This document shows positions 32,438 through 62,451 of a stretch of DNA of 64,000 nucleotides, in pieces. The stretch's first letter is position 1, and every line of letters starts with the position of its first letter. Source of the DNA: Aeriscardovia sp. (GTDB taxonomy: Bacteria; Actinomycetota; Actinomycetes; Actinomycetales; Bifidobacteriaceae). A program made the position numbers and the translations under genes. The notes beneath the pieces were generated by a model. That model saw nothing but the letters and a program-made list of their open reading frames with translations. It was not told where the DNA came from and did no database searches. The DNA lies in assembly GCA_017632945.1 (NCBI GenBank), contig JAGBQH010000012.1, positions 186,001 through 250,000 on the forward strand. Reading direction: 5' to 3'.

Positions 32438-32525
32438 GTCCAGGTGGCGGAATGGTAGACGCGCTAGCTTGAGGTGCTAGTGACCAACTATATCGGTCGT
32501 GCGGGTTCAACTCCCGCTCTGGACA
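32438..32525 (+). tRNA. tRNA-Leu (anticodon GAG)
   Basis: An 88-base class II tRNA. Acceptor stem GTCCAGG pairs with TCTGGAC with one G-U pair. The anticodon stem CTAGC/GCTAG encloses TTGAGGT, anticodon GAG at 32471-32473. A long variable arm (GACC/GGTC) is present, as expected for leucine. T-arm GCGGG/CCCGC and discriminator A follow. CCA is not encoded. A possible -10 (TAGAAT) is at 32423-32428, and a T-tract follows the gene. Confidence 0.97.
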
Positions 32526-43266: not shown

Positions 43267-43857
43267 CTACCCCAGCTTCAAGATTACGGCCTCTGCAACT
43301 TCTGCCATGCTCAGCCTTTTATCCATGCTGTTTTTCTGTATCCACCTAAAGGCTTCGGGTTCAGAAAGGTTCATATTCTCCATCAACAGCCCCTTTGCCC
43401 TGTCGACCTTTTTGCGAACTTCCACCCTCGCCCTGATATCGGTTATCTGGCTTTCAAGGGCATTTAACTGATCGAATCTGGAGATCGCGATTTCCATTGC
43501 GGGCAAAAGCTGCTCAGGCTCGAAGGGCTTTACTATGTAGGCTCCGGCCCCAGATTCTATAGCCTCGGCTACGAGGGGCTGCTGGGAGTAAGCAGTGAGG
43601 ATTACTACAGGGGCTATTTTTTCCTCCGAAAGGATTTTGGTGGCGCTGATGCCGTCGCCGCCGGGCATTTTGACGTCCATCAAAACCACATCAGGCTTCT
43701 CTTTGCGTGCGACCTCTACGGCTTCTTTTCCATTGGTCACTTGGCCCACAACAATTTGATTGAAAGTTTTAAGAGCTTGAACGATATCTAGCCTAATTAA
43801 AGGCTCATCTTCCGCAACTAATACGCGCCTGGGCGCGCTTGTGCCACTATTTGCCAT
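43267..43857 (-). CDS. pdtaR: ANTAR-domain response regulator (PdtaR-like)
   Basis: A 196-residue two-domain regulator. The receiver (about residues 10-130) has the acidic pair in LVAEDEPLIR, phospho-Asp in LMDVKMPG, Thr in ILTAYS and Lys in VKPF. The C-terminal ANTAR domain (about 138-193) has RKKVDRAKGLLMENMNLSE and EAFRWIQKNSMDKR. ANTAR proteins bind paired RNA hairpins and stop premature termination. In mycobacteria PdtaR works with the kinase PdtaS; no kinase is in this window. It sits between tRNA-Leu and polA, as in Mycobacterium. Confidence 0.93.
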   Translation of the reverse strand: MANSGTSAPRRVLVAEDEPLIRLDIVQALKTFNQIVVGQVTNGKEAVEVARKEKPDVVLMDVKMPGGDGISATKILSEEKIAPVVILTAYSQQPLVAEAIESGAGAYIVKPFEPEQLLPAMEIAISRFDQLNALESQITDIRARVEVRKKVDRAKGLLMENMNLSEPEAFRWIQKNSMDKRLSMAEVAEAVILKLG

Positions 43858-43873
43858 AAGCGCCTACGATTCG

Positions 43874-43947
43874 TACCCTGAGTGGGATTCGAACCCACAC
43901 TGTACAGATTTTGAGGCTGTTTCCTCTACCAATTGGGATACCAGGGC
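43874..43947 (-). tRNA. tRNA-Leu (anticodon CAA) with class I body
   Basis: A 74-base tRNA. Acceptor GCCCTGG pairs with TCAGGGT with G-U pairs at both ends. D-loop contains AATTGG. The anticodon stem is ACAGC/TCTGT with a C-U mismatch next to the loop CTCAAAA, anticodon CAA. The variable loop is only 5 bases, unlike the long arm of normal leucine tRNAs. T stem is GTGGG/CCCAC and the discriminator is A. It lies 18 bases after pyk and 16 bases before pdtaR, inside the operon. Confidence 0.9.
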
Positions 43948-43965: not shown

Positions 43966-45396
43966 TTAGGAAATGACATGATCAAAAATTGCTCCAGATC
44001 CGGCGCTTTCGGGGCTTCCTTCATTTTCAATTGTCTCTATAAGGACCCTCTCTCCCTTAGAAAGGCCGCATATGCCTTTAAGCTTTTCGTCAATCTTGAA
44101 GAAGACATCCCTGGAGGGGGTGAGAAGATCGGGGGTAAAGACGGCAAAAGTGCCCCAGTAGAGAGAAAGCTGGTAGTAAGTCTCTTCATTTGGGGTAAAA
44201 GCGTAGATCGGAATGGAGGGCCTGAACTTGGAAATGGCAGCTATGGGATCTGTGGAGCTGGCAAGCACCACTATCGCCTTGGCGCGGCGCTCATAGGCCG
44301 CAGGAAGAGCTGCGCAGGAGAGGACTTCCTGTCCATTGTCCTCTCTTGCCTTCACGGATGGGATGTAAGAAATGCCGTGCTCGCAGGTGTACTCAGAAAT
44401 TTTGGCCATAGTCTCTACTACGCGTGCGGGGTCTGACCCTACCGCCGTCTCATTGCTGGTCATGGTCGAGTCGCATCCATCCATGATGGCGTTTGCGCAG
44501 TCAGAAGTTTCTGCCCTTGTGGGGAGGGGGTTTTTAATCATGGAGCTAAGCATTTCGGTGGCCATTATCACAGGCTTTGCCCAGTAGCGGCTCATGGTTA
44601 TGAGCTTTTTGTTTATGATTGGAACCTGCCAGAACGGGAGCTCTACCGCCAGATCGCCTCTGGCGCACATAATCCCCTGGCAGGCCTTTACAATTTCCTC
44701 CATGTTTTCTATGGCTTCCGGCTTTTCCATCTTCACTATGATGGGCAAAACGCATTTCTTTTCTTCCATGATTTTCTTTGCCGGATCCAGATCGGAGGCC
44801 TTCCTTACAAAGCTCAAAGCTATCATGTCTACGCCGTGATCGAGCGCCCAGTTGAGGTCCTCTTCATCTTTTTGCGTGAGGGCCGGGGAAGAAATTTTTA
44901 CTCCGGGAAGGTTAATTCCTTTATGGCTGGAAAGAAAGCCGGGGGTAAGGACTTGGGTGAGGATTTTATCTCCCTCCACGCCTTTAACTTCCAGCCTCAC
45001 CAGGCCGTCATTTAAAAGAAGGATGTCTCCCGGCTTTACGTCTTTGGGAAGATCTTTGTAGGTGCAGCTTACACCCTCTTTAGTTCCTATAATGTCTTGC
45101 GAAGTTATGAAGAAATCCTGGCCTTTGTCGAGGTAGACTTCATCCTTTCCGTCGGCGTTCTTTTCAAACCATCCGCAACGAATCTTGGGGCCCTGAAAGT
45201 CTGCCATGATCCCGACATTCTTCCCAACCTGCTTGCGGGCCTCTTTTATGTTGTTCAAAATTTCCAAGTGTTGCTCGGGAGTGCCGTGCGAGAAGTTGAG
45301 CCTCGCCACATCCATCCCGTTTTGCATAAGAGTTTTAAGCATTTCCAAGCTGTCGCACGCCGGTCCTATGGTGCAGACGATCTTTCCCATCCTCAT
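43966..45396 (-). CDS. pyk: Pyruvate kinase
   Basis: A 476-residue enzyme making pyruvate and ATP from phosphoenolpyruvate. Blocks are CTIGPACDSLEMLK, RLNFSHGTPEQH near residue 35, DFQGPKIRCG near 70, the catalytic-lysine and metal region IIVKMEKPEAIENMEEI near 220, ARGDLAVELP, and MATEMLSSM. The N-terminus has MRMGKIV, and either Met may start it; the outer is chosen. It has the compact form without a C-terminal extension. It lies 21 bases after terC. Confidence 0.96.
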   Translation of the reverse strand: MRMGKIVCTIGPACDSLEMLKTLMQNGMDVARLNFSHGTPEQHLEILNNIKEARKQVGKNVGIMADFQGPKIRCGWFEKNADGKDEVYLDKGQDFFITSQDIIGTKEGVSCTYKDLPKDVKPGDILLLNDGLVRLEVKGVEGDKILTQVLTPGFLSSHKGINLPGVKISSPALTQKDEEDLNWALDHGVDMIALSFVRKASDLDPAKKIMEEKKCVLPIIVKMEKPEAIENMEEIVKACQGIMCARGDLAVELPFWQVPIINKKLITMSRYWAKPVIMATEMLSSMIKNPLPTRAETSDCANAIMDGCDSTMTSNETAVGSDPARVVETMAKISEYTCEHGISYIPSVKAREDNGQEVLSCAALPAAYERRAKAIVVLASSTDPIAAISKFRPSIPIYAFTPNEETYYQLSLYWGTFAVFTPDLLTPSRDVFFKIDEKLKGICGLSKGERVLIETIENEGSPESAGSGAIFDHVIS

Positions 45397-61176: not shown

Positions 61177-61694
61177 TAGACAGCTCGCAATTTCTTAAAA
61201 GTCACGCCCCTAAATTTCCGAAGGCATCTGCAAAAAATGAACCCTTCCTCCGTTCAGAGGCCTATAAGTTTGCCCTAAGATCCCTTTCGGCGGCCGGAGC
61301 GAGCGAAAAACGGCTTAGAGAGAGGATGAAAAAGAAGGGATTTTCACAAGAAGAAGCGAGCAAGGCCGTAGAGAATCTAAAAGCCATGGGCTTCTTAAAT
61401 GATAAAGACCTGGCAAGGCAGATTGTCCAAAAGTCTACAAGGGCCATGGAGGGAGAATCTCTTATACGCCTCAGGCTTTTAAAGGCCGGAATCGGCGAAG
61501 AAGATGCAATGGAAGCCATAGAGGAAGGCAGAGAGGAAATAGAAGAGGGAGAGGAGAGGTTCTCCCTGTTTTTAAAGGAAGAATCCGGATCCGATTTTCA
61601 AAAGGCTCTAAAGCTTTGCAAGAAAAAAGGCCAACCCTTAAGGCTGGCCATAAAGATTGGGGCTTCCTATACCCCGGGTTCTGTCACGCCTTGA
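61173..61694 (+). CDS. recX: Regulatory protein RecX
   Basis: A 173-residue helical-repeat protein that restrains RecA. Three-helix repeats include [20 protein letters not shown]-like and [16 protein letters not shown], then a C-terminal acidic part. ATG overlaps the recA stop by 4 bases. The last 11 codons lie antisense to the 3' end of rnpB and the rnpB terminator lies within codons about 150-159, so those bases serve two roles. Confidence 0.9.
61623..61649 (-). terminator. rnpB terminator inside recX
   Basis: On the minus strand an 8-bp stem (GGCCAGCC with GGTTGGCC, one G-U) closes a 5-base loop and is followed by six T. It lies 10 bases after the RNase P RNA end. Confidence 0.85.
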
Positions 61695-62007
61695 AATGAG
61701 GCGCGGGTGGCTATCCATCTAGTTTGCCTGTTGCCAGGCAAATCAAGCGATCTACCCGGATGCGAAGCGAGCAACTTCAATGCATCCTACTTGATCTTGC
61801 TCCCGATGAGGTTTGCCTGCGGCCTTTGTTACCAAAGTGCCCGGTGGTCTCTTACACCGCCTTTTCGCCCTTACCCCCGACAGGGGGGCGGTATGTTTTC
61901 TGTTGCGCTTTCTCTCAGGTTTCCCTGGGCGGGCGTTACCCGCCATCGCGCTCTATGGAGCCCGGAAGTTCCTCGTGGGATTATCCACGCAGCCACCCGG
62001 AAGCCCT
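61659..62007 (-). ncRNA. rnpB: RNase P RNA, bacterial class A
   Basis: About 349 bases. Conserved class A signatures on the minus strand are, in order: GGAACTTCCGGGCTCC (P4 5' side), GGTAACGCCCG, GCGCAACAGAAA, GGTAAGGGCGAAAAGG, GTAAGAGACCACCG, CTTTGGTAACAAAG, CTCATCGGGAGCAAG and GACAGAACCCGGGGTATAG. P1 pairs GGGCTTCC (61999-62006) with GGAAGCCC (61660-61667), fixing both ends. It processes tRNA 5' ends. Minus-strand orientation is opposite to recX and secA. Confidence 0.96.
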
Positions 62008-62451
62008 TAAATCCATGGTATCAAATAACGTCTTTGTATGAGAAACTTAAAGTAAAGGAACGGGATCGGTGAAGGCGTGTGAAGAGAAAAGGTGTAGGAG
62101 CGGATCGGATCTGATTTCCGAGGAGTCTAAGAAAGGAATCGGTAGGAAATTGAAAGCAGATAAATTCGCTTTTAATGCGCAAAGAAATGCCCTAGCACCT
62201 GCCCAATCTGGCCTGTTTGAAAGAGCCTGTAATAGGAAAACAGGAAGCAGCCGCAGAAAAGGAGCGCAAGGCAGAAACGGTCTTAAGAATGCCGTTTATA
62301 AAATGGATTTTTTAGGCCGTGACTTTTCTTGTTTGTATACGGGAAAACCGGGCACCGTCAACGTTTGAGAGGCATGCCAAAATCTGACGGGCGCCAGATG
62401 CAAAATAACCAAATCTTATAGGCCTGGAAATATGAAAAGGAGTGCTCAGCC
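62008..62451. other. 444-base region between rnpB and secA with no confident gene
   Basis: It should hold the rnpB promoter on the minus strand (a possible -10 TACCAT near 62019) and the secA promoter on the plus strand. One short plus-strand reading frame is listed separately. In many actinobacteria an hpf/raiA-type gene precedes secA; I see none. I found no tRNA, tmRNA or other RNA fold I could name. Confidence 0.5.
62069..62368 (+). CDS. Doubtful 99-codon reading frame, unknown
   Basis: Starts with GTG behind AAAGGAA. The product is basic, rich in Lys, Arg, Ser and Ala with four Cys and no hydrophobic segment. It resembles no family I know and its codon pattern does not stand out from a random frame. 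It may not be a gene. Confidence 0.25.
   Translation: MKACEEKRCRSGSDLISEESKKGIGRKLKADKFAFNAQRNALAPAQSGLFERACNRKTGSSRRKGAQGRNGLKNAVYKMDFLGRDFSCLYTGKPGTVNV

Follow-up and report, generated by a model that had tools for sequence, protein, structure and literature searches.

The closest described relatives of the gene reported here are the bacterial class II leucine tRNAs, such as E. coli leuX (CAA, 85 nt). The determinants recognized by E. coli LeuRS are reported to be A73, A15-U48, G18 G19 and A20a, and tRNA-Leu variants without the long arm are reported to stay active with this enzyme (PMC9976931). The tRNA-Leu(UUR) of animal mitochondria is likewise without a long arm and, by the same account, is charged by its LeuRS essentially via A73 and A14 (PMC9976931). 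It belongs, however, to an organellar lineage with an organellar synthetase, and we saw no link between it and the tRNAs described below. Among bacteria, a tRNA cluster of the M. mucogenicum clade is described as containing a tRNA-Leu(TAG) with a short variable loop beside the normal isoacceptor (PMC6582537), and three M. tuberculosis leucine tRNAs are named as long-loop (PMC11541572), which to us suggests that the other two may not be. Single or implied cases of short-loop leucine tRNAs are, by these accounts, already in print. A Met-scoring tRNA with a CAA anticodon and no long arm shows seven differences from a tRNA-Met, whereas the family described here goes with leucine anticodons. In the open PMC literature we found no account of a compact tRNA-Leu family, of its leucine anticodons, or of its phage spread or switching.

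The tRNA-Leu(CAA) gene is also known from tRNA-dependent lysogeny, in which the phages Gaia and Nebkiss are reported to integrate into the M. smegmatis tRNA-Leu-CAA gene and a phage tRNA takes over (PMC10865867). The differing classes of host and phage tRNA that we propose below are not remarked on in the portions of that account available to us.

The window, by which we mean the whole stretch of 64,000 nucleotides that was analyzed, carries a 74-nt tRNA-Leu(CAA) gene (75 nt in the ARAGORN print) beside a pdtaR-like gene (Table 1). ARAGORN called it as tRNA-Leu(caa) at 43873-43947 on the minus strand, and Rfam model RF00005 matched 43947-43874 on the same strand with 50.4 bits (gathering score 29, E 7.7e-8), in agreement with the boundaries given by an earlier, sequence-only reading. 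That reading had described a CAA anticodon, A73, a five-base variable loop, a class I-like body and a mismatch next to the anticodon loop, all of which are borne out by the sequence, ARAGORN and RF00005, and its GAG isoacceptor with a long arm at 32438 is also recovered by Rfam and ARAGORN.

Table 1. Features of the compact tRNA-Leu(CAA) locus, in window coordinates
Feature	Coordinates	Strand	Evidence
Compact tRNA-Leu(CAA) gene, positions 1-73, CCA not encoded	43874..43947	-	ARAGORN, RF00005, sequence
Anticodon CAA (positions 34-36)	43911..43913	-	Sequence, ARAGORN
Variable loop ACAGU, 5 nt (positions 44-48), where a long variable arm is expected	43899..43903	-	Sequence, Rfam, relatives
Anticodon loop closed by C31.U39 mismatch (C31 at 43916, U39 at 43908)	43908..43916	-	
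Discriminator base A73, reported main leucine determinant	43874..43874	-	Sequence; identity rules as reported in PMC9976931
Upstream neighbor gene, 476 aa, 3' end 18 nt before the tRNA	43966..45396	-	
pdtaR-like response regulator gene, 196 aa, start 16 nt past the tRNA; synteny anchor	43267..43857	-	
Comparison: tRNA-Leu(GAG) from this genome, with long arm	32438..32525	+	ARAGORN, Rfam

Written in segments from its 5' end, the tRNA reads GCCCUGG UA UCC C AAUUGGUAGA GGA A ACAGC CUCAAAA UCUGU ACAGU GUGGG UUCGAAU CCCAC UCAGGGU A. The acceptor stem has seven pairs, two of them wobbles (G1.U72 and G7.U66), the D stem has three pairs with C13.A22 unpaired, the anticodon stem has four pairs in addition to the mismatch, and the T stem has five. 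Its 5-nt loop falls short of the variable arm of at least 10 nt that defines class II. The loop has the 4-5 nt length of class I, but the 3-bp D stem with C13.A22 departs from the 4-bp class I D stem with its 13-22 pair. The tRNA and the two flanking genes all lie on the same strand, and the 476-aa gene, judging by its sequence, probably encodes pyruvate kinase. With only 18 and 16 nt to the neighbors, no integration remnant was seen at the window copy. Elsewhere in the window, positions 61654-62008 of the minus strand encode a bacterial RNase P class A RNA (284 bits).

The genome to which the window belongs comprises 787,826 bases in 12 contigs and is 99.18% complete; its PdtaR is 93% identical to that of an Aeriscardovia MAG. 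Rfam located 46 tRNA places, 45 over the cut-off plus one weak match at a contig end, and ARAGORN, run on loci or stretches covering all of these places, returned 45 distinct tRNAs. In the leucine set, the CAG, GAG, UAA and UAG tRNAs are 83-89 nt long and all long-armed, while the CAA tRNA is compact. No second CAA tRNA was found among the 45 tRNAs of this 99%-complete genome, and a single LeuRS gene exceeds the family cut-off. UUG accounts for 203 of the 1702 leucine codons (12%) in the 34 window open reading frames of at least 250 aa. Were the compact tRNA nonfunctional, UUG would be left to wobble by tRNA-Leu(UAA) alone. As a separate observation on the tRNAs of this genome, several of tRNA-Val(CAC), Val(GAC), Thr(GGU), Met(CAU) and Phe(GAA) (loci L004, L007 and L010) have GTCC rather than GTTC at the T loop, with C at position 55, and the T loop of tRNA-Phe is ATCGTTC.

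To see how the structure is maintained among relatives, we analyzed base pairs in 21 compact chromosomal sequences, chosen from 44 distinct ones, with the 15-48 pair counted in. The pairs are formed in 97.7% of all cells, and 12 of the 21 pairs, two D-stem pairs among them, have changed on both sides, a number reached by none of 500 shuffles. For covariation, a score of 0.44 was obtained, compared to 0.17 in shuffles, and again none of 500 reach it. One of the five measures, 'further pair types', gave no excess, as 384 of the 500 shuffles attained the observed value. Positions 31 and 39 fail to pair in 7 of the 21 sequences, which indicates that a mismatch here is tolerated in several lineages, and C31.U39 itself is seen again in one Alloscardovia and two Bifidobacterium loci. 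Given this recurrence, a sequencing slip is unlikely.

These data bear directly on whether the gene is a tRNA pseudogene that is decaying as the genome shrinks, tRNA-Leu(UAA) being the sole reader of UUG. The small genome (0.79 Mb), the C31.U39 mismatch, the two acceptor-stem wobbles and the presence of a long tRNA-Leu(UAA) capable of wobbling to UUG would all fit such a history. A pseudogene would be expected to have relaxed pairing and lost conserved positions; instead, pairing is strongly conserved, with both-side changes in over half of the pairs, and the mismatch is common to related genera. We therefore dropped this explanation as very improbable.

All of the reported E. coli LeuRS determinants, A73, A15-U48, G18 G19 and A20a, are kept in the window tRNA. 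The sequence-only reading had suggested that the tRNA might read UUG with special recognition; reading of UUG is very likely, but with these determinants in place special recognition is not needed. The compact bodies that we collected share a core of U8 A9, C12 C13, a 3-bp D stem, A14 A15, G18 G19, A20a and A73, together with a short variable loop whose last base is U48. We define the compact leucine tRNA family by U8 A9 nn C12 C13 A14 R15 .. G18 G19 n A20a, a short variable loop with Y48, A73 and a leucine anticodon, and the window tRNA has this body, A73 and a leucine anticodon. In common with the class II leucine tRNAs, namely leuX and the four others of this genome, compact tRNAs have a leucine anticodon, A73, A14, A15, G18 G19, an A20a-type D loop and a 3-bp D stem. 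Unlike them, they lack the variable arm (5-6 nt as a rule) and have A9 rather than G9, and C12 C13 where class II has mostly G12 G13; among the long leucine tRNAs of our pool, G9 is present in 78 of 81, and G12 G13 predominate. The compact tRNA would be a tRNA-Leu by function but is not class II by structure.

The tie between this body and leucine was examined in viral contigs, using a body pattern in which the anticodon, variable loop and base 73 were left free. It gave at least 123 matches in at least 120 stretches. Among the 123 matches listed, 122 have leucine anticodons (UAA 70, CAA 23, UAG 20, GAG 4, CAG 3, AAG 2, with GUG 1 as the remaining anticodon), and A73 and U48, neither specified by the pattern, are each found in 122. 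The single non-leucine body among those listed (L213, 524-578, minus strand) combines the His anticodon GUG with C73, so the tie is not absolute; this may be a natural switch from a leucine body to histidine identity. In 64 short leucine tRNAs that had not been selected for A15, A15-U48 occurs in 62 and G15-C48 in two, and A73 in all 64. Across all 239 parsed short leucine tRNAs, one or the other of these pairs is present in 230 and neither in nine, A73 is present in 233 (of the remainder, four are cut short and two have U), and the variable region measures 5 nt in 218, 6 nt in 15 and 7-14 nt in six.

When the anticodon was masked, the 15 non-CAA tRNAs closest to that of the window, out of 1,254 in a pool enriched in compact ones by the way it was collected, were all compact UAA or UAG leucine tRNAs. 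With the compact leucine tRNAs removed from the pool, the nearest bodies were those of Arg, Thr and Lys tRNAs, and within its own genome a tRNA-Arg; the 5' acceptor strand is the same as that of the genome's tRNA-Arg(UCU). For this reason, isotype models built on long-arm leucine tRNAs may reject the gene, and the call of a standard model may well conflict with the CAA anticodon. These resemblances are also the ground on which one could argue for a different amino acid identity, with UUG being misread. We consider this very unlikely, given the leucine anticodons on 122 of the 123 listed matches of an anticodon-free search and the combination of A73 with A15-U48 or G15-C48 in 64 of 64 unselected relatives, and since misreading of a codon that makes up 12% of the window's leucine codons would be felt throughout.

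Compact leucine tRNAs recur in Actinomycetota. A CAA-only pattern found them at 33 places in 32 of 396 genomes, compared to three of 396, once each, for the same pattern run backwards as a control; ARAGORN read all 30 of the matches fetched as compact tRNA-Leu(CAA). A wider pattern, N34-A35-R36, which by construction admits leucine or Phe anticodons only, gave 78 places in 66 of the 396 genomes and none in the backwards control, these places being classed by pattern and only in part passed through ARAGORN. Their anticodons are UAA (51), CAA (20) and UAG (7), with no Phe anticodon, and U48 is present in all 78. One complete genome, G150, has 45 tRNAs, of which we read the eight of at least 80 nt and two compact ones. 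Its leucine UAA and CAA tRNAs are compact and its UAG, GAG and CAG tRNAs long, the other five of at least 80 nt being Ser (4) and Tyr (1). The PdtaR of G150 nearly matches PDB 1s8n, presumably the M. tuberculosis protein, and for this reason we term the genome Mycobacterium-like. Having only compact tRNAs for UUA and UUG among those read, it too argues against the compact form being a pseudogene. The tRNA-Leu(TAG) of the M. mucogenicum clade is, judged by its description, very likely a member of the same family, although it is reported as one odd gene of an accessory cluster, neither as a sole decoder nor as part of a family (PMC6582537).

Compact leucine tRNAs also occur in phages. Each of thirteen phage records picked from BLAST matches carries one, their hosts being Erwinia, Pseudomonas, Streptomyces, Mycobacterium, Cytobacillus, Lactobacillus (two), Rhodococcus, Gordonia, Synechococcus, Acinetobacter, E. 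coli and Enterococcus. The compact tRNA of Felixounavirus, an E. coli phage, had no match in 5,426 E. coli genomes at an E limit of 1e-3. That of a Bacillus phage matched 11 plasmid records, eight actinobacterial and three from Priestia. Unannotated places resembling compact leucine tRNAs were seen on an M. intracellulare plasmid (L336) and a Priestia plasmid (L334), with an HNH endonuclease gene about 0.7 kb from one of them. Nearly a full compact leucine set, of four tRNAs (CAG, CAA, GAG and UAG; L159, 2747-3928, minus strand), lies on a 462-kb phage contig. Compact phage tRNA-Leu with the anticodon AAG, which for wide reading in bacteria would need A34-to-inosine editing, occurs in L158 (1957-2031), L191 and L223. 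In a tree of 149 compact bodies built without the anticodon, phage and chromosomal rows are mixed (13 changes, three forced); the tree is too weak for questions of origin and tests a single chromosomal origin of compact bodies poorly.

To obtain an evolutionary perspective on the locus, we used pdtaR as an anchor. It had a match in 106 of 198 Actinomycetota genomes, many of them weaker response regulators, and 30 loci were taken, including the window's own. A tRNA-Leu(CAA) lies within about 1.5 kb of pdtaR in 21 of these 30 (11 compact, 10 long), and within 2.5 kb on either side in 78 of 80 named loci (26 compact, 52 long). The sequence-only reading had expected a similar tRNA near pdtaR in other actinobacteria, and this holds, Bifidobacterium being among them; what it did not foresee is that relatives differ in whether this tRNA is compact or long. 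Compact tRNAs occur at pdtaR in Aeriscardovia, Bifidobacterium, Alloscardovia, Demequina, Cellulosimicrobium, Cellulomonas, Isoptericola, Actinotalea, Puerhibacterium, Actinomyces, Prauserella, Streptomyces and others, and long ones in Arthrobacter, Nesterenkonia, Rothia, Brachybacterium, Kocuria, Actinobaculum, Flaviflexus, Terrabacter and others. In the pooled set of 140 loci, which counts overlapping fetches and includes 30 loci picked for their compact tRNA, the tRNA is compact in 67, long in 62 and absent from 11. The T arm of compact tRNAs is often nearly identical to that of the long CAA tRNAs of relatives.

The arrangement of the locus also speaks to a regulatory use, which the sequence-only reading had raised. 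A role as a tRNA-like RNA that regulates pdtaR, for instance from within its leader, would agree with the position of the window tRNA 16 nt before pdtaR on the same strand and with the widely conserved synteny. In the 127 scored loci, overlaps counted, the tRNA is always upstream of pdtaR, but it is divergent, pointing away from the gene, in 100 and in the same direction in 27, and long-arm CAA tRNAs occupy the same place. For these reasons we dropped the regulatory explanation, which we hold to be the least probable of those considered; that the gene is the only CAA tRNA found in the genome and that its stems are under pairing constraint likewise count against it.

A PdtaR tree was built from 108 distinct rows, 53 of them with a compact and 55 with a long tRNA. 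The state of the tRNA changes 13 times on it, at least seven of these changes being forced on starred branches, compared to about 36.5 changes in shuffles; the state is therefore clustered. This is a quick and weak tree, with 48 of its 105 inner branches open, and gives neither a direction of change nor a first state. Its Streptomyces group (support 99) contains eight compact and two long loci. Some record labels look wrong on the tree: a 'Propionibacterium' MAG and the records with the names Xylanimonas and Sanguibacter keddieii are placed within Actinomyces, and a 'Sphaerisporangium' groups with Cellulosimicrobium.

Compact and long CAA tRNAs thus alternate near pdtaR, and the alternation could have arisen by repeated loss and regain of the arm in place, within the host lineage and with no part played by phages. 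This would concern the evolutionary half of our reading only. It is consistent with the clustering of the state on the PdtaR tree and with the compact-body tree, on which 32 of the 33 chromosomal copies listed are nearest to other chromosomal copies. Simple loss or regain of an arm does not sit well, however, with the linked core changes at A9, C12 and C13, nor with the extent of divergence at the locus. No two of the locus tRNAs from nine Streptomyces-like genomes are the same, and they have a mean identity of 0.70 (0.77 among the seven compact ones), whereas control tRNAs for Ile, Met and Asn in eleven Streptomyces-like genomes have identities of 0.967, 0.995 and 0.956. The controls were taken from the best-scoring tRNAs and may exceed average conservation; with that qualification, replacement explains the divergence better than drift does. 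Together with the presence of integrases or an element at some loci, this leads us to regard change in place as rather unlikely.

The element in question is found in genome G298. There, genes for a tyrosine integrase (PF00589), terminase and portal come after a complete compact tRNA-Leu(CAA) (L369, 1332-1408). The prophage-like element spans about 10.4 kb (L369, 1332-11789), and its far end is a repeat of the 3' part of the tRNA, with 62 of 65 bases identical. Its integrase is 41% identical to that of Gaia over 417 aa. Gaia-like integrase matches were obtained in 15 of the 145 loci searched, two of them being this same G298 place; the others are weak (E 2e-14 or worse) and may represent resident recombinases near the locus. 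PF00589 was confirmed in all five integrase matches tested. With one genome here and the reported phages (PMC10865867), the tRNA-Leu(CAA) gene is an integration target.

The published Gaia junctions allow the exchange to be followed further. Sequencing of these is reported to reveal an 8-bp core and no functional host tRNA at attL, the phage carrying its own tRNA; the need for a phage tRNA is reported to have been demonstrated with another phage, Fionnbharth (PMC10865867). The tRNA-Leu(CAA) of Gaia is long-armed, 83 nt as annotated. For cluster J phages, a 44-bp core reaching the 3' end of the tRNA is reported (PMC10865867), and we found that these phages match positions 32-75 of a compact tRNA; in Optimus, a cluster J phage, 46 nt, through A73 and C74, are identical to the compact tRNA of locus L062. 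Given that a long-arm tRNA would need more than 44 bp from the anticodon to the 3' end, and given the Optimus identity, the M. smegmatis tRNA disrupted by Gaia would itself be compact. If so, a compact host tRNA is traded for a long phage tRNA, which supports equal function of the two. That Gaia supplies a normal long-arm tRNA-Leu(CAA) on disrupting the host copy is also evidence against another amino acid identity.

From the sequence, a structure under pairing constraint, the kept determinants, the absence of any other CAA tRNA among those found in the genome, and a body type that goes with leucine anticodons, we conclude that the gene is very likely an ordinary leucine tRNA in compact form, accepted by LeuRS and decoding UUG. 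The class II core and long variable arm would have been exchanged for a class I-like core and a 5-nt variable loop, with the features read by LeuRS kept. The ordinary LeuRS of the cell would charge the compact tRNA via A73 and the elbow (A14, A15-U48, G18, G19 and A20a), and the charged tRNA would decode UUG; we infer both steps. The compact type is common to phages of many hosts and to Actinomycetota. In the simplest account of the alternation of compact and long forms at pdtaR, tRNAs borne on elements would have replaced all or the 3' part of this integration target gene. Replacement mediated by phages or other elements as the cause of the alternation is a proposal whose prospects we judge to be about evenly balanced. 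More tentatively, and here we lean somewhat against the idea, the compact tRNA could be a separate design shaped in phage tRNA clusters that has repeatedly invaded cellular decoding through swaps at the pdtaR-side tRNA-Leu(CAA), such that lineages including Bifidobacteriaceae, Mycobacterium-like, Streptomyces-like and others would read UUG, and some also UUA, with phage-type tRNAs. One might guess that the missing arm helps such tRNAs to escape host or toxin enzymes that grip the class II arm.

A family of leucine tRNAs that breaks the class II rule, provides some bacteria with the only reader found for common codons, and is common to phages of unrelated hosts alters the description of leucine identity, and serves as a warning that isotype models may mislabel such genes. 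The pdtaR locus provides a natural test of LeuRS, in which two tRNA architectures serve the same codon with several exchanges at one place. As such, these observations suggest that phages can replace essential host tRNAs, beyond supplementing them.
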